From NCBI RefSeq assembly GCF_029222965.1, contig NZ_JARHUD010000004.1, positions 186,001 to 250,000 on the forward strand: 64,000 nt of DNA, written 5' to 3'. The notes beneath the pieces are model-generated. The model was not told the DNA's origin. It did no database searches and saw nothing but the letters and a program-made list of their open reading frames with translations. Made by a program: the position numbers and the translations under genes. Position 1 is the first letter of the stretch. Each line of letters opens with the position of its first letter. The stretch is from Aquibaculum arenosum (lineage in GTDB: Bacteria > Pseudomonadota > Alphaproteobacteria > Kiloniellales > DSM-21159). Shown here in pieces: positions 53,429 through 60,822 of this stretch.

Positions 53429-53431
53429 GTG

Positions 53432-55048
53432 ATGTCCGACGACCAAGGCAACCCGACCCCAGAGGGGGCAGCCGACCTGATCGAAACGGATTACGAGGTC
53501 GGTCAGGACAACATCCAAGCAAAGATTGGACCCTTCGGGCTCGATATCCACAACCCGGTGTTCATGATCTCCGGGCTCGCCATCGTCGCTTTCGTTTTCC
53601 TGACCCTGGCCTTGCCCGGGCCTGCAGGCGATATCTTGAACTGGCTGCTCTCGACGGTGACCTCGACCTTCGACTGGTTCTTCCTGATCGCCGGCAACAT
53701 CTTCGTGTTGGTTTGCCTGGGCATCCTGGTTTCGCCGCTGGGAAAGGTTCGTCTGGGTGGACGCGAGGCCACGCCCGACTATTCCTACCCCGGCTGGTTC
53801 GCCATGCTTTTTGCCGCCGGCATGGGCATCGGGCTGATGTTCTATGGCGTGTCGGAACCGCTCACGCACTTTGGCACCGCCGTGGCCGAGGATGCGGGAA
53901 CCGCCGGAAGCTGGTCCCCGCTGGCCGGAGCGCCGGGCAGCACCGAGGAGGCCCGCCGTCTGGGCATGGCGGCGACGATCTACCACTGGGCCCTGCATCC
54001 TTGGGCGATCTACGCCATCGTGGCACTGTCTCTGGCGCTTTTCGCCTTCAACAAGGGCCTGCCGCTGTCGGTGCGCTCGATCTTCTATCCGATCTTCGGT
54101 GAGAAGGTCTGGGGCTGGACCGGCCACGTCATCGACACCCTGGCAGTCTTTGCCACGCTCTTTGGTCTGGCGACCTCCTTGGGCTTCGGGGCGGAGCAGG
54201 CCAATGCGGGGCTCGAGTTCCTTTTCGGCGTGCCGGAGGGCGACACCTCAAAGGTCTTGCTAATCGTCGGGATCACGGCCGTTGCCCTGGTTTCGGTGCT
54301 CGCTGGGCTGGATAAAGGCGTGAAGCGCCTGTCGGAGATCAACCTGTCCTTGGCCATCCTTCTGTTGCTCTTCGTCATCCTGGTGGGGCCCACACTTGCG
54401 ATCATCAACGGCTTCTTCGCCAACCTCAGGGCCTATGTGGAGTATCTGCCAGCACTCTCAAATCCCTTCGGGCGTGAGGACAGCAACTTTGCCCAGGGCT
54501 GGACCGCTTTTTACTGGGCCTGGTGGATCTCCTGGTCGCCTTTTGTCGGCATGTTCATCGCCCGGGTTAGTCGGGGGCGCACGGTGCGCGAGTTCATCAC
54601 CTGCGTGCTGCTGATTCCTTCAATAGCGTCGGTCCTCTGGATGACAGCTTTCGGCGGCACGGCCATCAACCAGGTGATCGTCGAGGGCTACCAGGCTGCG
54701 GCCGAAGCGGCGCTGCCGCTGCAGCTCTTCCTGATGCTGCAGGAACTGCCCCTGGCGTCGATCACCTCCTTCATTGGCATCGTGCTGGTGATCGTGTTCT
54801 TCGTGACCTCGTCCGACTCGGGTTCCCTGGTTATCGATACCATCACTGCCGGTGGTAAGTTGGATGCCCCGGTTTCGCAGCGGGTCTTCTGGTGCATTTT
54901 TGAAGGGCTTGTCGCCATCGCTCTGTTGCTGGGCGGCGGGCTGGCGGCGCTGCAGGCAGCCTCGGTCTCGACGGGTCTGCCCTTTGCCTTGGTGCTGTTG
55001 CTGGGCTGTTGGGCCCTGATCAAGGGCTTGCGCGCAGAACCGCGCTGA
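53432..55048 (+). CDS. BCCT family transporter (betaine/choline/carnitine)
   Basis: A 538-residue, 12-helix symporter. The diagnostic AAGMGIGLMFYGVSEPLTHF in helix 3 matches the glycine-rich substrate/sodium region of BetP-type carriers, and YWAWWISWSPFVGMFIARVSRGRTVREF contains the tryptophan cage of helix 8. IVFFVTSSDSGSLVIDTITAGG is the Na+ site Ser pair, which argues for Na+ coupling as in BetP. There is a hydrophilic N-terminal extension (about 30 residues) and a short C-terminus without a BetP-like osmosensing tail. ATG at 53432 follows GTGGGGAG; GTG at 53429 is an alternative. The substrate (betaine, choline, carnitine, DMSP) is unresolved. Confidence 0.94.
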   Translation: MSDDQGNPTPEGAADLIETDYEVGQDNIQAKIGPFGLDIHNPVFMISGLAIVAFVFLTLALPGPAGDILNWLLSTVTSTFDWFFLIAGNIFVLVCLGILVSPLGKVRLGGREATPDYSYPGWFAMLFAAGMGIGLMFYGVSEPLTHFGTAVAEDAGTAGSWSPLAGAPGSTEEARRLGMAATIYHWALHPWAIYAIVALSLALFAFNKGLPLSVRSIFYPIFGEKVWGWTGHVIDTLAVFATLFGLATSLGFGAEQANAGLEFLFGVPEGDTSKVLLIVGITAVALVSVLAGLDKGVKRLSEINLSLAILLLLFVILVGPTLAIINGFFANLRAYVEYLPALSNPFGREDSNFAQGWTAFYWAWWISWSPFVGMFIARVSRGRTVREFITCVLLIPSIASVLWMTAFGGTAINQVIVEGYQAAAEAALPLQLFLMLQELPLASITSFIGIVLVIVFFVTSSDSGSLVIDTITAGGKLDAPVSQRVFWCIFEGLVAIALLLGGGLAALQAASVSTGLPFALVLLLGCWALIKGLRAEPR

Positions 55049-55115: not shown

Positions 55116-56873
55116 TCACGCCAGGGGCGTACTGTCGACAGAAAAGCTCAGGTATTCCCCTTCGTTGTACTGCTGATGGTCGAGGCTCTGCACCAGGCCG
55201 CGCAGGATGCGCAATCCGGCATCCTCCCCATCCGACGGGTCCGGCTGGGCTTCCAGACCGGAGAGCTGCTCCAGGATGTTCTCCTGGGTTTGCGCCCCCA
55301 TGAAGAATTCGACTGCCAGGAGGTCGCCGTCCCGCTGCACCGCAGCAGACAACCGCAATTCGCGTCGACGGCCGCCGGTGGACCGGCGCTCCAGCAAGAA
55401 GAGCAGCGCCTCCTCGGCTGCCAGTTGCAGCCGCATCACCGCTGGCTTGTCCCAACCGATGGCCACGGCCTCTTCCTGCAACCAGTCATGGAGATCGCCC
55501 AAGGCCGCGTGAGAGCCGGCGAGAGAGCGTCGGTGGCGGCGCGGGCTGCCGATGTTCAGGGCAAGCATCAGAAGGATCGCGGCGATGGATCCGGCGGTGA
55601 TGCCGTTGTCGAGCAGGACCCGTGACCAGGGCGGCAGCAAATCGGAGAAGAGCCACTGGTGCTGGAAGCCCATGCCCAGCCAGAAAGCAAGGCAGACCAC
55701 GAAGCCGTTGCGATAGGACAGCCCGCCCTCCGTGACCATGCGCAGGCCATTCCCGAAGAGCAGCGACAGGATTACGAAGGCAAAGGCCCCCAAAACCGGG
55801 CTGGGCACCGACTGAAGCAGGGCTGAGAGTTTCGGCGAGAAGGCCAGCAGCACCAGCATCAGGCCCCCGAACACGGCCACGCGGCGCGCGGCCACGCCGG
55901 TCATTTCCACCACTGCAACGCTGTCGGAGTAGGTGGTGTTGGGCAGGGTTCCGGCGACGCCGGAGAGCAGGTTGCCCACACCGTCGGCATAGACCGCGCC
56001 CTGTATCACCTTGAAATCCAACGGCCGCTGCTCGCGGTGAGAAAGACGCTGAATGGCGATGGCGTCGCCGTAAGTCTCGACCGCCCCCACGAGCGTGACG
56101 ATGATGAAGGCGGGCAGCAGGCCCCAGAAGGCCGGACCGAAAGACAGATCCAGACCGGGCCAAGCCACGGAGGGCAAACCGAACCATGGCGCTGTTGCGA
56201 CAGCTGAGACATCCAGCAAATCAATGGACCAAGCCACCAGACAGCCGGTCAGGACGCCGCCGAGCGGTCCCCAGAGCTTAAGCCCGCCACGGGCGAAGAG
56301 CAGCAGGCTGAGCGTGATCAGAAAGGTGATCGTTGCCACCAGGGGCGCGCCCGAAGGGCCCAGTGTCGTCTCCGGCCGTTGGGCCAAGAGATCGAAGATC
56401 ACCGGGAAGACCGTGACGGCAATCAGCATCATCACGGTTCCGCCCACCGTCGGCGTAAGAATGCGCCGGAGCTGACCCAGCTTGGAGGCAAAGACGAACT
56501 GCACCAGGGCTGCGGCGATGATGAGGGTGCCCATGAGCGGCATGCCACCGGCGGTCAGTGCGGCGATGCCGATAGCGATGAAGGCACCCGAGGTGCCCAT
56601 GAAGAGCGGATAGCCCGCACCCACGGGTCCGATGCGGCGCGCTTGCAACATGGTGGTGAGGCCGGAGATCAGCAGGGCGGCGAAGACAACCCAGGAGCCG
56701 TATTCTCCTTCCAGGCCGACGGCGCGCAGCACGATCAGCGGCGTCAGCACGATGCCGACGAGGATCAGGGTCACCACCTGAAAGCCGAGCATGCCCGTGA
56801 GGAGAAGCGGCGGATTCTCGTCGGCCGCGTACTGCAGCCCCGCGGATTTAGCCGATCGGTCGACCTGACTCAT
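55116..56873 (-). CDS. NCS2 nucleobase permease fused to a GHKL-like ATPase domain
   Basis: A 585-residue protein in two parts. Residues about 25-440 form a 14-helix uracil/xanthine permease-type carrier: AVETYGDAIAIQRLSHREQRPLDFKVIQGAVYADGVGNLLSGVAGTLPNTTYSDSVAVVEMTGVAARRVA carries the NAT-type signature, with GAGYPLFMGTSGAFIAIGIAAL in the first half. Residues about 450-585 are cytoplasmic: a helix WDKPAVMRLQLAAEEALLFLLERRS, strands RELRLSAAVQRDGDLLAVEFFMG, then DGEDAGLRILRGLVQSLDHQQYNEGEYLSFSVD, resembling the anti-sigma/RsbW HATPase_c_2 fold with an altered N box (Asn missing) and a G2-like GLRILRGL. ATG at 56873 has AAGGGGGA 7 nt upstream. Confidence 0.88.
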   Translation of the reverse strand: MSQVDRSAKSAGLQYAADENPPLLLTGMLGFQVVTLILVGIVLTPLIVLRAVGLEGEYGSWVVFAALLISGLTTMLQARRIGPVGAGYPLFMGTSGAFIAIGIAALTAGGMPLMGTLIIAAALVQFVFASKLGQLRRILTPTVGGTVMMLIAVTVFPVIFDLLAQRPETTLGPSGAPLVATITFLITLSLLLFARGGLKLWGPLGGVLTGCLVAWSIDLLDVSAVATAPWFGLPSVAWPGLDLSFGPAFWGLLPAFIIVTLVGAVETYGDAIAIQRLSHREQRPLDFKVIQGAVYADGVGNLLSGVAGTLPNTTYSDSVAVVEMTGVAARRVAVFGGLMLVLLAFSPKLSALLQSVPSPVLGAFAFVILSLLFGNGLRMVTEGGLSYRNGFVVCLAFWLGMGFQHQWLFSDLLPPWSRVLLDNGITAGSIAAILLMLALNIGSPRRHRRSLAGSHAALGDLHDWLQEEAVAIGWDKPAVMRLQLAAEEALLFLLERRSTGGRRRELRLSAAVQRDGDLLAVEFFMGAQTQENILEQLSGLEAQPDPSDGEDAGLRILRGLVQSLDHQQYNEGEYLSFSVDSTPLA

Positions 56874-57031
56874 GATGGTATCCCCCTTGCGCAACACTTT
56901 ACCCGGCGGCGGGCGCTCCTGTGAATGGCTTGGTTTGTTCGACATGAGGAAACAGTGCGGCCGCCGGGCGTCACTTCTCTTGCGCGCCGCGCGTGCCTAC
57001 CTTCCAGGGGACAGCAAAAGGAGTGATCCCC

Positions 57032-57950: not shown

Positions 57951-58838
57951 TCAGGCAGTGATCTGCTTCAGCCAGTCGATGAAGGCGTGGGTGGCGGCCT
58001 TGGCGGCACCCTGCGGCGACAGCGTTGCATGGTAGCCGAAACCGGGATCGACCTCGCCGCCGGGCCAGGGCCGCAAGTGGCCCTCCCGCACCAGCTCGTC
58101 GGTGATTGAGCGCCAGCCGAGCACCAGCCCGCGCCCGTCCCTGGCGGCCTGGATCGCCTGCACATAGTTGTCGAAGGTCTGGGTGGGGCCGCGGGGTCGG
58201 CCCCGCCCGGCCATCGCCATGTACTCCGTCCAGCCTGCCCAGTGCGGTGTCTCGGCGCTTGCCACCTGGATCAGCGGCGCTTCCTCGAGATCCACGCCCG
58301 CCTCTAACAGGCGCGCGATCAATGCCGGTTGGCCCACCGGGCAGACGACTTCATTGAAAAGCTTCCAGGTCTTTCCATCACTCCAGTCTCCCGTGCCATA
58401 GCGCAGGGCGACGTCGATGCCGGGGGCAAGGGCCGGAAGGTCTGTCGGCGGCGCCTGCACGTTCACCACCAGTTGCGGATGCTGCGCATAGAAGTTGGAG
58501 AGGCGTGGCATCAGCCAGTGGGTCGCCATGCCGACGGTGCAGGCAATGGTCAGCTGCTGCTCCTGCCCGGCGCTTGTCTGGATTTCGTCGATCGTGCCGG
58601 AAATGATACCAAGTCCCTCACGGGTGGCTCGGGCGAGCTGCTGTCCCGCCTCGGTGAGCCGGGCCGGTCGTGTCGTGCGATCGAGAAGAGCCACGCCCAC
58701 GTGGTCTTCGAGAGCCTTGAGCGCCTGGGTGATGGCCGGGCGGGTGACGTTCAGGCGCGCGGCGGCCTCGCGCATTGAGCCGAGACGGGCAATCTCCTCG
58801 AACGTGGCAAGCAGGCGCAGTGGGGGCAAACGCTTCAC
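57951..58838 (-). CDS. LysR family regulator of the GBBH-like/aldolase pair
   Basis: A 295-residue LTTR with the helix-turn-helix ATFEEIARLGSMREAAARLNVTRPAITQALKALEDHVGVALLDRTTRPARLTEAGQQL and the GcvA-type effector domain LTIACTVGMATHWLMPRLSNFYAQHPQLVVNVQ. The start codon is GTG at 58838. It is divergent from the oxygenase gene with a 116-bp spacer that contains overlapping TTAAC/TTAAG dyads, so it probably controls that pair. The inducer is unknown. Confidence 0.93.
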   Translation of the reverse strand: MKRLPPLRLLATFEEIARLGSMREAAARLNVTRPAITQALKALEDHVGVALLDRTTRPARLTEAGQQLARATREGLGIISGTIDEIQTSAGQEQQLTIACTVGMATHWLMPRLSNFYAQHPQLVVNVQAPPTDLPALAPGIDVALRYGTGDWSDGKTWKLFNEVVCPVGQPALIARLLEAGVDLEEAPLIQVASAETPHWAGWTEYMAMAGRGRPRGPTQTFDNYVQAIQAARDGRGLVLGWRSITDELVREGHLRPWPGGEVDPGFGYHATLSPQGAAKAATHAFIDWLKQITA

Positions 58839-58954: not shown

Positions 58955-60085
58955 ATGGACACCCTGACATCCGCCGTCACCCTTCGGGAAAAGGGCCTCG
59001 ACATCACCTTGCCGGACGGCCGCACCAGCTACTTCAATTATTACTGGCTGCGTGACAACTGCCCGACCTCCTTCGACAGCGAGACGCGCGAGCGGACCTT
59101 CGACATCTTTCATCTCGAACAGCCTCCGCGCCCGCAAAGCGTTGCTCTCGAGGGGGAGGCCCTGGTGATCGCCTGGCAGCGCGAAAATCACGTCTCGCAC
59201 TTGCCCATTCCCATGCTCCAAACTTTCGCTGATGAGGGGCGCCGTCACGATCCAGCCGCTCTGCCGCGCGCACCTTGGTACGGCGATCACTTTCCCGCGA
59301 TCCAGCGCTTTTCGCAGCCGATGCTGTTGAGCGATCCGCAGAAAGTCGCGGCGTGGATAAGGGCAATGCTGGTCGAAGGCATCGCCATCATCACCGACAT
59401 GCCCGACAGCGACGAAGGGCTGACGGAAACGGCCAGGCTGATCGGTCAGGTGCGTCCCACCTATTTCGGCCAGTACTTCGACGTGCGCACACACATCGAG
59501 CCGACCAATCTGGCCTACACCGCAAAGGCGCTGGAGTTACACACGGATACCCCGGCCGAAGAGGTGGCGCCGGGTGTTCAGTTCCTGCATTGCCGCGCCA
59601 ACACGGTGGAGGGCGGCGACAGCCTCTTCCTCGACGGCGTCGCTGTTGCCGAGGATCTCCGTCGTGAAGATCCCGAAGCCTTCCGACTGCTGTCCGAGAT
59701 CGACATTCCCTTCTACTGCGAGCATGACACCTACGACATGCGCTCGCGCCAGCGGGTGATCGAACTGGACGAGACGGGCGCGGTGTCGGGCGTGACGATC
59801 AGCCAGCACATGGCCGACGTCTTCGACCTGCCCCAGAAGCTGCTCGACGACTACTATCCCGCCTTCTGCCGCTTCGGCCGGATGCTGCAGGAGGAGCGCT
59901 ACGTGATGCACTTCCGGATGCGGGCCGGGGAGTGCCTCACCTTCGACAATCACCGGGTTGTGCATGGTCGTGCGGCCTATTCGGCGAGCAGCGGTGAGCG
60001 CTATCTGCGCGGCTGCTACACGGATCGCGCTGAAATGCGCTCCAGCTATCGGGCACTCGTCAGCGAAGGGCGCTTCAAGGCATGA
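58955..60085 (+). CDS. Gamma-butyrobetaine hydroxylase-like 2-oxoglutarate oxygenase
   Basis: A 376-residue non-haem Fe(II) oxygenase. An N-terminal DUF971-type domain (YFNYYWLRDNCPTSFDSETRERTFDIFHLEQPPRP, about 20-100) is followed by a TauD-type catalytic domain. Iron ligands are His196-x-Asp198 in ELHTDTP and His337 in DNHRVVHGRAAY; the 2-oxoglutarate-binding Arg lies in GERYLRGCYTDR. BBOX1 and trimethyllysine dioxygenase share this two-domain build. The zinc site of BBOX (three Cys and a His) is not preserved: only Cys36 and His53 remain. The gene overlaps the class II aldolase start by 4 bp, so hydroxylation may be coupled to C-C cleavage. Substrate: butyrobetaine, trimethyllysine or a related quaternary amine (inference). 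Confidence 0.88.
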   Translation: MDTLTSAVTLREKGLDITLPDGRTSYFNYYWLRDNCPTSFDSETRERTFDIFHLEQPPRPQSVALEGEALVIAWQRENHVSHLPIPMLQTFADEGRRHDPAALPRAPWYGDHFPAIQRFSQPMLLSDPQKVAAWIRAMLVEGIAIITDMPDSDEGLTETARLIGQVRPTYFGQYFDVRTHIEPTNLAYTAKALELHTDTPAEEVAPGVQFLHCRANTVEGGDSLFLDGVAVAEDLRREDPEAFRLLSEIDIPFYCEHDTYDMRSRQRVIELDETGAVSGVTISQHMADVFDLPQKLLDDYYPAFCRFGRMLQEERYVMHFRMRAGECLTFDNHRVVHGRAAYSASSGERYLRGCYTDRAEMRSSYRALVSEGRFKA

Positions 60086-60822
60086 CGGCAGAGAGCGTAA
60101 CCGAACAGGGGCTGCGGCAGGACCTGGCTGCGGCCTTCCGGCTTTGCCACCGCTTCGGCTGGAGCGAGTCCGTCGGCAACCACTTCAGTGCCGCCATCTC
60201 CGACTGCGGCCGGAGGTTCCTGCTGAACCCGCGCTGGCAACACTTCGCGACCATCCGGGCGAGCGATCTACTGCTGCTGGACGCCGACGATGCAGAGGTG
60301 ATGGCCCGCCCGGACGCGCCCGATCCCTCGGCCTGGACGGTGCACGGGACGTTGCACCGGAGCCTGCCGGCGGCACGGGTCATCCTGCATTGCCATTCAC
60401 CCTATGCCCTGGCGCTGTCCTGTCTGAAGGACCCGAGCGTGCTGCCGATCGACAACAACACGGCACGCTTCTTCGGCCGCACCGGCTATGACCTACACTT
60501 CGGCGGCATCGCCGACGCAGAAGAAGAAGGGCGGCGCATGGCCAGCGCGATGGACGGTCACTCGGTTATGGTGATGGCCAACCACGGCGTCACGGTCGCC
60601 GGGGAGACGGTCGCCGATGCCTTCGAGGACCTCTACTTTTTCGAGAAGGCGGCCCAGACAATCATCCTGGCCCGCTCCGCAGGTCAGCCGCTGTCGGTGC
60701 TCTCGGACGAGGTGGCAAGCGCGACCGCCGAAGGTTGGGCCGCGTACCGGGGAATGGCCCAGCGGCATTTCGACTATCTCAAGTCGACACTCGACGCCGA
60801 AGACTCTTCCTGGCGCGACTGA
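60082..60822 (+). CDS. Class II aldolase/adducin domain protein
   Basis: A 246-residue zinc-type aldolase/epimerase-fold protein. Zinc ligands are in LHCHSPYALAL (His-x-His) and VMANHGVTVAG (His); further fold marks are WSESVGNHFSA, VHGTLHRSLPAARVILH and DAFEDLYFFEKAAQTIILA. The family includes fuculose-1-phosphate aldolase, ribulose-5-phosphate epimerase and several aldolases acting on dihydroxyacid-like substrates. The start ATG overlaps the oxygenase stop (ATGA), so the two are co-translated. Which bond is cut is unknown; a beta-hydroxy carbonyl made by the oxygenase is a plausible substrate. Confidence 0.9.
   Translation: MTAESVTEQGLRQDLAAAFRLCHRFGWSESVGNHFSAAISDCGRRFLLNPRWQHFATIRASDLLLLDADDAEVMARPDAPDPSAWTVHGTLHRSLPAARVILHCHSPYALALSCLKDPSVLPIDNNTARFFGRTGYDLHFGGIADAEEEGRRMASAMDGHSVMVMANHGVTVAGETVADAFEDLYFFEKAAQTIILARSAGQPLSVLSDEVASATAEGWAAYRGMAQRHFDYLKSTLDAEDSSWRD

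Follow-up and report, generated by a model that had tools for sequence, protein, structure and literature searches.

Two adjoining genes on the forward strand of a 64,000-nucleotide stretch of the Aquibaculum arenosum genome (contig NZ_JARHUD010000004.1, positions 186,001 to 250,000; hereafter the window, with positions counted from its first letter) form a conserved coupled unit. The upstream gene, here called OXY, encodes an Fe(II)/2-oxoglutarate (2OG) oxygenase of the gamma-butyrobetaine hydroxylase (GBBH)/TmpA group, and the downstream gene, ALD, a protein with the class II aldolase fold. Since the unit is conserved and coupled, OXY has an aromatic cage of the kind that holds a trimethylammonium group, and part of the relatives have carnitine or betaine genes beside the pair, it is likely to serve a catabolic route for a quaternary amine. 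Beyond this we tentatively propose, as a reading that we favour while counting it short of probable, that a short trimethylammonium acid, in the simplest case beta-alanine betaine, would be hydroxylated by OXY and then oxidatively decarboxylated by ALD to glycine betaine.

The open reading frames (ORFs) of the window confirm the gene boundaries and the 4-bp overlap reported in the first-pass annotation, in which the aldolase starts within the oxygenase stop: the stop codon of OXY is the TGA inside the ATGA with which ALD opens (Table 1). Related loci were collected by scanning genome contigs with ALD as the query, and the best 80 of 100 confirmed matches were used. OXY (62–77% identity) lies directly upstream of ALD in 79 of the 80, cut by the contig end in L020, and conserved separation of the two genes in relatives, which the earlier annotation had set as a refuting condition, was sought in this way and not found. 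A 4-bp overlap with an in-frame start on the OXY stop is present in 77 of the 79 paired loci (67 as ATGA, 10 as GTGA), the two without it being L029 and L073; a chance overlap of the genes is rejected by this retention. In the sole unpaired locus, L060, a contig from a metagenome-assembled genome, the 581 bases 5' of ALD hold another reading frame, not OXY. By eye, this frame (L060:1-581) resembles the end of a GcvT-type demethylase. A LysR gene of the same family accompanies 68 of the 80 loci and, among the 46 of 80 that were inspected, it is divergent from OXY wherever it occurs, while Novosphingobium has a different LysR-type gene upstream. The pair recurs in many bacteria of soil and sea: among the record titles of the loci are Rhizobium, Mesorhizobium, Nitratireductor, numerous Rhodobacterales and Novosphingobium.

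Because the locus set was seeded with ALD, it cannot gauge the frequency of OXY without ALD, and an independent search of 289 alphaproteobacterial genomes with both proteins served as a small check. OXY was found in 11 genomes (E<=1e-60) and ALD in 38 (E<=1e-50), so that ALD is the commoner of the two and also occurs without OXY. Four of the 11 genomes (G000, which is the window's own, G107, G084 and G199) have an OXY of the clade marked by the Ser-Gln-His signature described below. All four also carry ALD, which neighbours OXY in three of them: a LysR-like gene separates the two in G107, and G199 has them in the reverse order. The two genes of G084 sit on different contigs. Of the seven other genomes that match OXY, two (G148 and G211) carry ALD elsewhere. 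Inspection of 8 of the 40 plasmid records listed showed the pair in five, and ALD with no OXY in the stretch inspected in three. The overlap is annotated in four of the five pair-bearing plasmids (Sulfitobacter, Thioclava, Agrobacterium vitis and Pseudooceanicola algae), and in the fifth, of Paracoccus seriniphilus, the gene order is reversed. Viral contigs scanned with the OXY alignment gave 29 pattern matches, with no relative among them.

The best solved relative of OXY is TmpA (6npb, 193 bits), followed by hBBOX (154 bits), and a structure search with its AlphaFold model, which is of fair quality (mean pLDDT 78), returns the same two proteins first. Residues were counted over 84 close homologues, the window's protein included. 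The iron ligands that the first-pass annotation had read as an HTD/H motif (H196, D198 and H337) do align with those of hBBOX and are invariant in the set. So are F175 and Y355 of the aromatic cage and the anion-binding N185, while F171 is kept in 83 of 84 and Y188 in 80, with Phe in the other four. The corresponding cage residues of hBBOX are Y177, W181, Y194 and Y366. TmpA and hBBOX share aromatic residues, and the acid group is bound by N191 and N293 in hBBOX, the TmpA residues being N187, N287 and R288 (PMC9296572). The position of hBBOX Asn293 is Gln, and that of TmpA Arg288, which serves the phosphonate, is His, in 84 of 84 sequences. The Ser-Gln-His signature, which takes the place of the second anion-binding segment of BBOX and TmpA, extends to the more distant L093, L129 and L118, and in a tree of 28 rows, in which the close set was sampled by 13 of its 84 members, the proteins that bear it form a 16-row clade with support of 100/100. 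TmpA and hBBOX fall outside this clade, both flagged as long branches.

OXY also stands apart from the named families by score. It reaches 282.5 bits against the cut-off of 414.75 of the BBOX model TIGR02409, a strict threshold which a more canonical paralogue in the same genome also fails to reach (347), and 278.4 against 400 for the TmpA model NF049936; it is likewise under the cut-off of the trimethyllysine dioxygenase model. The zinc site of hBBOX consists of three Cys and one His. The earlier annotation held that OXY lacks this cluster, and this is largely true: the position of hBBOX C40 is T, S, A or G and never Cys, leaving the site incomplete, yet Cys stands at C36 (hBBOX C38) in 78 of 84 sequences and His at H79 (hBBOX H82) in 83 of 84. 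In summary, OXY has the same domains, iron ligands, cage and Asn191 as BBOX and differs from it in scoring below the cut-off, in the change of Asn293 to Gln, in the incomplete zinc Cys site and in its coupling to ALD.

ALD belongs to the family NF005689 (PRK07490; 349.7 bits, above the cut-off of 260), whose title is merely "hypothetical protein". In 119 sequences (84 close and 35 distant) the three metal-binding His are invariant, as in FucA, but the positions that align with FucA Glu73 and Tyr113 hold Ala and Asn or Gln, respectively, in 119 of 119. The five phosphate-binding positions of FucA (Asn29, Thr43, Gly44, Ser71 and Ser72) correspond in close ALD sequences to His; Arg, Lys or Cys; Trp; mostly Pro or Ala; and Ser, so that ALD agrees at Ser72 only, and the His at the Asn29 position is constant throughout the 119. 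The Trp at the Gly44 position, W52, is present in all 84 close sequences and in 2 of 35 distant ones. It was considered as a strict marker of pairing and rejected: Gln takes its place in the paired ALD of L093 and L118, and Trp occurs in L089 and L090 with no OXY in the stretch inspected. Both Glu73 and Tyr113 are essential in FucA, whereas POD, which binds Fe(II) by three His, lacks both at the aligned positions (PMC11841055). In POD the place of Glu73 is occupied by Glu164, and uncharacterised class II aldolases have been suggested as possible dioxygenases (PMC11841055). ALD has an invariant Glu149 at the same spacing before the third His; by this spacing it may stand in for FucA Glu73, which would fit either chemistry.

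The model of ALD is good (pLDDT 91). A Foldseek search ranked 3ocr (uncharacterised), TqaM, NovR, POD and 4xxf all above FucA. VIA Z scores, for which rows within 1 are tied, are 28.5 for TqaM (rmsd 2.5 over 242 residues), 28.4 for NovR (2.5 over 241) and 28.0 for POD (2.5 over 227), compared with 25.1 for HMPDdc and 22.7 for FucA (2.3 over 205). E29, H34 and H54 of ALD recur together in both TqaM proteins, and are not found as a trio in NovR, FucA, 3ocr, 4xxf or adducin. Although annotated as an aldolase, ALD looks more like an O2-using decarboxylase, and its model lies at least as close to the iron oxygenases TqaM, NovR and POD as to FucA.

Table 1 Features of the OXY/ALD locus in the window
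Feature	Position	Strand	Basis and conservation
OXY, Fe(II)/2OG oxygenase of the GBBH/TmpA group, 376 amino acids	58955-60085	+	ORF; Pfam TauD 158 bits and GBBH-like_N 26 bits
OXY F171, F175, Y188 (cage) and N185 (anion-binding)	59465-59518	+	Align with hBBOX Y177, W181, Y194 and N191
OXY H196-T-D198, first two iron ligands	59540-59548	+	Align with hBBOX H202/D204; 84/84 close homologues
OXY S283-Q284-H285 signature	59801-59809	+	Replaces hBBOX N292-N293-A294 and TmpA N-N-R; 84/84 close homologues
OXY H337, third iron ligand	59963-59965	+	Aligns with hBBOX H347; 84/84
OXY Y355, fourth cage residue	60017-60019	+	Aligns with hBBOX Y366
ATGA, OXY stop overlapping ALD start	60082-60085	+	Sequence
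ALD, class II aldolase-fold protein, 246 amino acids	60082-60822	+	Pfam Aldolase_II 140 bits; NCBIfam NF005689 (PRK07490)
ALD stretch with E29, H34, W52, H54	60166-60243	+	E29, H34, H54 in 119/119; E/H/H trio in two TqaM proteins
ALD A84 at the FucA catalytic Glu73 position	60331-60333	+	Ala in 119/119
ALD H103-C-H105, first two metal His	60388-60396	+	Align with FucA H92/H94; 119/119
ALD E149, a Glu placed 19 residues ahead of the third metal His	60526-60528	+	119/119; same spacing as POD Glu164 to His183
ALD H168, third metal His	60583-60585	+	Aligns with FucA H155; 119/119
LysR regulator gene, divergent from OXY	57951-58838	-	ORF; Pfam LysR HTH and substrate domain
BCCT transporter gene	53429-55048	+	Pfam BCCT 596 bits; ~4 kb from the OXY/ALD pair

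The flanks of the 80 loci were clustered and searched for gene families, and the counts of marker genes within ~8 kb of the pair were set against 20 control regions (340 kb, against 1229 kb for the loci), placed at round coordinates on 11 contigs of 8 genomes of other genera. A marker was scored as matched at >=40% identity and E<=1e-30, a rule that favours the loci from which the markers came. Two settings recur. Setting A consists of acyl-CoA dehydrogenase, CoA ligase, carnitinyl-CoA dehydratase-like, BKACE-like and carnitine-dehydrogenase-like genes; setting B of a GMC oxidoreductase, an enolase-superfamily dehydratase, an aldehyde dehydrogenase and 3-hydroxyacid dehydrogenase-like genes. 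At least two of the gamma-butyrobetaine/carnitine-route genes of setting A occur in 17 of 80 loci and at least two setting B genes in 10 of 80, against none of the 20 controls in either case, a contrast which is somewhat inflated, as the marker proteins were mostly drawn from the same loci and the named plasmids. Among the five pair-bearing plasmids, those of Sulfitobacter and Thioclava have annotated carnitine 3-dehydrogenase, carnitinyl-CoA dehydratase, BKACE, acyl-CoA dehydrogenase and CoA ligase genes adjoining LysR-OXY-ALD; Paracoccus seriniphilus, which has setting B, also has a glycine betaine ABC transporter gene and a gene whose score for trimethylamine N-oxide demethylase, 1036 bits, falls just short of the 1100 required; Agrobacterium vitis has the one-carbon (C1) genes PurU, FolD and ETF-QO upstream of the pair; and beside the pair of Pseudooceanicola algae there are no setting A, setting B, betaine-transport or C1 genes. 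For the ABC binding protein of setting A, the nearest match is 4eq7 ("polyamine") and a gamma-aminobutyric acid sensor is also close, which suggests omega-amino acid betaines as candidate ligands. The GMC neighbour in setting B is choline-dehydrogenase-like in general terms only, and the names of the solved structures that match the enolase-superfamily neighbour give no specific function. The gene neighbours favour quaternary-amine catabolism in general and pick out no single substrate.

The closest parallel is a two-gene operon in which TmpA and TmpB convert trimethylaminoethylphosphonate to glycine betaine and phosphate (PMC10574752). OXY/ALD is likewise a two-gene unit whose first step would fall to an Fe/2OG oxygenase with a trimethylammonium cage, and TmpA is the best match of OXY in both sequence and structure. 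The differences lie in the second Asn and Arg288 of TmpA, which are Gln-His in OXY, and in the second protein, where TmpB has an HD domain and ALD the class II aldolase fold; OXY is followed by an Aldolase_II gene in the window and by a homologue of ALD in 79 of the 80 loci, not by a gene of the TmpB type. On what we consider the best reading, drawn by analogy, OXY/ALD would be the carboxylate counterpart of TmpA/TmpB. Both TmpA and BBOX hydroxylate the second carbon from the nitrogen. OXY, with the N(CH3)3 group held in its aromatic cage, would do likewise, and if the carbon so hydroxylated bears the carboxylate, beta-alanine betaine would be the substrate and 2-hydroxy-3-(trimethylammonio)propanoate the product. 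With a side chain longer by one CH2, Gln at the position of Asn293 would match a substrate that has one CH2 fewer than gamma-butyrobetaine. ALD, through its three His, would then most likely use Fe(II) and O2 to strip the carboxyl carbon as CO2, giving glycine betaine, which may be demethylated further; C1 or demethylase genes stand beside the pair in two plasmids (Paracoccus and Agrobacterium vitis).

Precedents for the second step are found within the same fold. The substrate of TqaM is a 3-amino-2-hydroxy acid, with the same atom order as the substrate proposed for ALD. TqaL, TqaF and TqaM convert L-valine to 2-aminoisobutyrate (PMC10764440), the contribution of TqaM being an oxidative decarboxylation (PMC12192607), and CloR/NovR act with O2 on a mandelate-type 2-hydroxy acid (PMC13111500). 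TqaM and NovR/CloR have in common with ALD the fold, the three-His site and the absence of FucA Glu73, to which TqaM adds E29/H34/H54; they differ in having at most 25% identity to it in structural alignments, in serving peptide or antibiotic biosynthesis and in not being placed as its sisters in a tree whose inner forks are open. POD shares the fold, the three His (which bind iron in POD) and the lack of FucA Glu73 and Tyr113 (PMC11841055), as well as the Glu 19 residues before the third His, and differs in its substrate, an oxime, and in an identity of 18–20%. A three-His site in a class II aldolase fold is also common to true aldolases, and FucA itself has the three metal His and is set apart by Glu73, Tyr113 and most of the phosphate-binding positions, which ALD lacks.

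Several observations weigh against the proposed shortening of beta-alanine betaine, for which the metal, the substrate and the reaction of the pair are inferred. The OXY model falls below a pLDDT of 50 at residues 180–205, in the active site, and is too weak for the pocket to be read. The structure nearest to ALD is the uncharacterised 3ocr (Z 29.1), and 4xxf, named as a fuculose-1-phosphate aldolase, ties with POD (Z 27.4), while the lower Z of FucA is partly due to its shorter chain. The aligned positions of 4xxf are likewise without Glu73 and Tyr113, so that a protein lacking the two could still be an aldolase. In the ALD tree TqaM, NovR and 4xxf make up a long-branched group of their own to which ALD is not sister, with the inner forks open, and the E/H/H trio is present throughout the ALD group and in a paralogue from the same genome (39% identity); the trio may therefore be ancestral. 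The OXY-paired ALD of P. seriniphilus and G199 are without W52. As to the neighbourhoods, 53 of the 80 loci are in neither setting. The markers of betaine demethylation show no enrichment at the loci: DMGDH/GcvT occurs in 1 of 80 loci and 1 of 20 controls, and there is no match to GbcA, betaine binding protein, PurU or ETF-QO in any of the 80 loci or 20 controls. The presence of carnitine-route genes nearby does not in itself demand beta-alanine betaine, and the setting B genes of ten loci, with their enolase-superfamily dehydratase and 3-hydroxyacid dehydrogenase-like members, are left unexplained.

The first-pass annotation had supposed that a quaternary amine is hydroxylated and the product split by a zinc aldolase. 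The amine catabolism is supported by the cage and the neighbours, but the zinc aldolase is weakened by the lack of Glu73, Tyr113 and most phosphate-binding residues of FucA at the aligned positions and by the resemblance of the model to iron oxygenases. Put in explicit form, ALD would perform a metal-dependent retro-aldol cleavage, for example of a 3-hydroxy-2-trimethylammonio acid to glycine betaine and an aldehyde, which we regard as unlikely. Its class II aldolase fold and full His triad suit such a reaction, as does the quaternary-amine gene context; the invariant Glu149 (119 of 119) could replace FucA Glu73, as Glu164 does in POD (PMC11841055), and 4xxf bears the aldolase name without the same FucA residues. 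Against it, the two residues essential in FucA are changed in every ALD sequence, the ALD model stands no farther from iron oxygenases than from FucA, and cleavage to the carbanion of an unactivated carboxylate would be difficult without pyridoxal 5'-phosphate (PLP). A PLP aldolase, for its part, could not act on a quaternary nitrogen, as a matter of general chemistry. We consider it similarly improbable that OXY is a gamma-butyrobetaine hydroxylase that makes carnitine, with ALD later cleaving carnitine or 3-dehydrocarnitine, or decarboxylating a 3-oxo acid in the manner of OtnC, in parallel to the BKACE route. The carnitine-route genes of the 17 loci would be accounted for, the 3-hydroxyacid dehydrogenase-like genes found in 11 of 80 loci would furnish the 3-oxo acid, and Aldolase_II does cover decarboxylases such as OtnC and HMPDdc. 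OXY, however, falls well short of TIGR02409 (282 against 415) and has Gln for Asn293 in all 84 sequences, two more GBBH/TmpA-like genes occur in the genome, one with three Cys and the NN motif and one by BKACE- and carnitine-dehydrogenase-like genes, and a CoA route adjoining the pair would be redundant.

The same two steps might instead act on a betaine of greater length, for instance by turning 5-(trimethylammonio)valerate into gamma-butyrobetaine for use by the adjoining CoA genes. This scheme would account for the gamma-butyrobetaine genes that accompany the pair in 17 of 80 loci, but it needs hydroxylation four carbons from the nitrogen, unlike TmpA and BBOX, and seems to us quite improbable. 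More doubtful still is a demethylation in which OXY would release an N-methyl group as formaldehyde, which ALD would then condense with an acceptor. PurU, FolD and ETF-QO beside the pair in Agrobacterium vitis and the GcvT-type demethylase-like gene close to the Paracoccus pair would be in keeping with such a scheme, and the related DfmD does lose a methyl group (PMC9296572). The PurU and ETF-QO markers, however, are found in none of the 80 loci and DMGDH/GcvT in only one. In TmpA and BBOX the chain carbon, not a methyl, sits at the iron, and we know of no formaldehyde aldolase in the ALD subfamily.

The wider ALD family offers a further comparison. In a sample of 36 loci with ALD relatives of 38–53% identity, probed for a limited set of oxygenase kinds, 9 adjoin an oxygenase of those kinds. 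A fatty-acid-desaturase-type gene lies beside the ALD relative in L155, L157, L170 and L171 and a fatty-acid-hydroxylase-type gene in L161, which also has carnitine-route genes, and L164; the relatives next to these membrane oxygenases are 46–53% identical to ALD. In L152 the neighbours are a choline dehydrogenase and a Rieske-type gene, and in L145 and L146 OXY. This recurring pairing with O2-using hydroxylases, in a minority of loci, fits a second enzyme that acts on hydroxylated products.

The window's own genome contains two further paralogues of the GBBH/TmpA type, and the idea that OXY is its sole GBBH-like enzyme is thereby rejected. In one (G000:C25) the three-Cys motif is intact and the NN motif is present. 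The other (G000:C12:71232-74339, L085) reaches 398 of the 400 bits set for TmpA and is divergent from BKACE- and carnitine-dehydrogenase-like genes; by eye it is without a residue matching BBOX Tyr194. The genome also has two MttB-family genes, which would fit glycine betaine as the product of the pair. At G000:C24:120007-123109 (L149:6008-9109) there are, in a row, an OtnK-like kinase, an OtnC-like class II aldolase and a TauD-family oxygenase (the kinase and OtnC names were given by eye), a second neighbour pair of aldolase fold and oxygenase in this genome, from other subfamilies.

Of the other genes in the window, the LysR regulator is nearest to TIGR03418, the choline-sulfate regulator model, at 209 bits, under the cut-off of 325. 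The BCCT transporter is a possible importer for the substrate of the pair; as no homologue was found in the 80 related loci (E<=1e-8), it is not part of the conserved unit. A xanthine-permease-family protein encoded at 55116-56945 (-) has ~140 extra C-terminal residues that no Pfam model covers and that look by eye like an ATPase-like domain. In 13 loci a gene that by eye is glyoxalase/VOC-like lies on the opposite strand near ALD, for example at L021:8727-9248 (-).

Part of the idea that links betaines to a class II aldolase is already in print, in the description of an Arctic SAR11 betaine island where BBOX, CIIA (class II aldolase), CDH, BKACE, CHDH and ALDH are found together (PMC12421898). 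The gene types match those met here, likened by type and not by subfamily; the island paper also lists a lactoylglutathione lyase, and its passages on the island describe neither an aldolase reaction nor a coupling of BBOX to CIIA (PMC12421898). Apart from this island, no paper on the pair as a betaine pathway, and none that assigns the pair a function, was present among the literature matches listed, a coverage that mostly leaves aside subscription papers, and none was found that joins at least two of the terms homocholine, trimethylaminopropion-, trimethylamino-1-propanol and alanine betaine. Beta-alanine betaine is a plant osmolyte reported in the halophytic Limonium (title cited in PMC4744692).

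In its broadest form our proposal is a widespread bacterial alpha-oxidation of betaines, in which OXY and a translationally coupled iron oxygenase of class II aldolase fold shorten beta-alanine betaine by one carbon and the ALD-type family consists of O2-dependent 2-hydroxy-acid decarboxylases paired with varied hydroxylases (Fe/2OG, fatty-acid hydroxylase-type and desaturase-type). We offer this as a conjecture that is rather doubtful as it stands. If true, it would give rhizobia and marine Rhodobacterales a gene-level route by which beta-alanine betaine becomes glycine betaine, and would move proteins now annotated as aldolase or hypothetical, with ALD present in 38 of the 289 alphaproteobacterial genomes, into oxygen chemistry.

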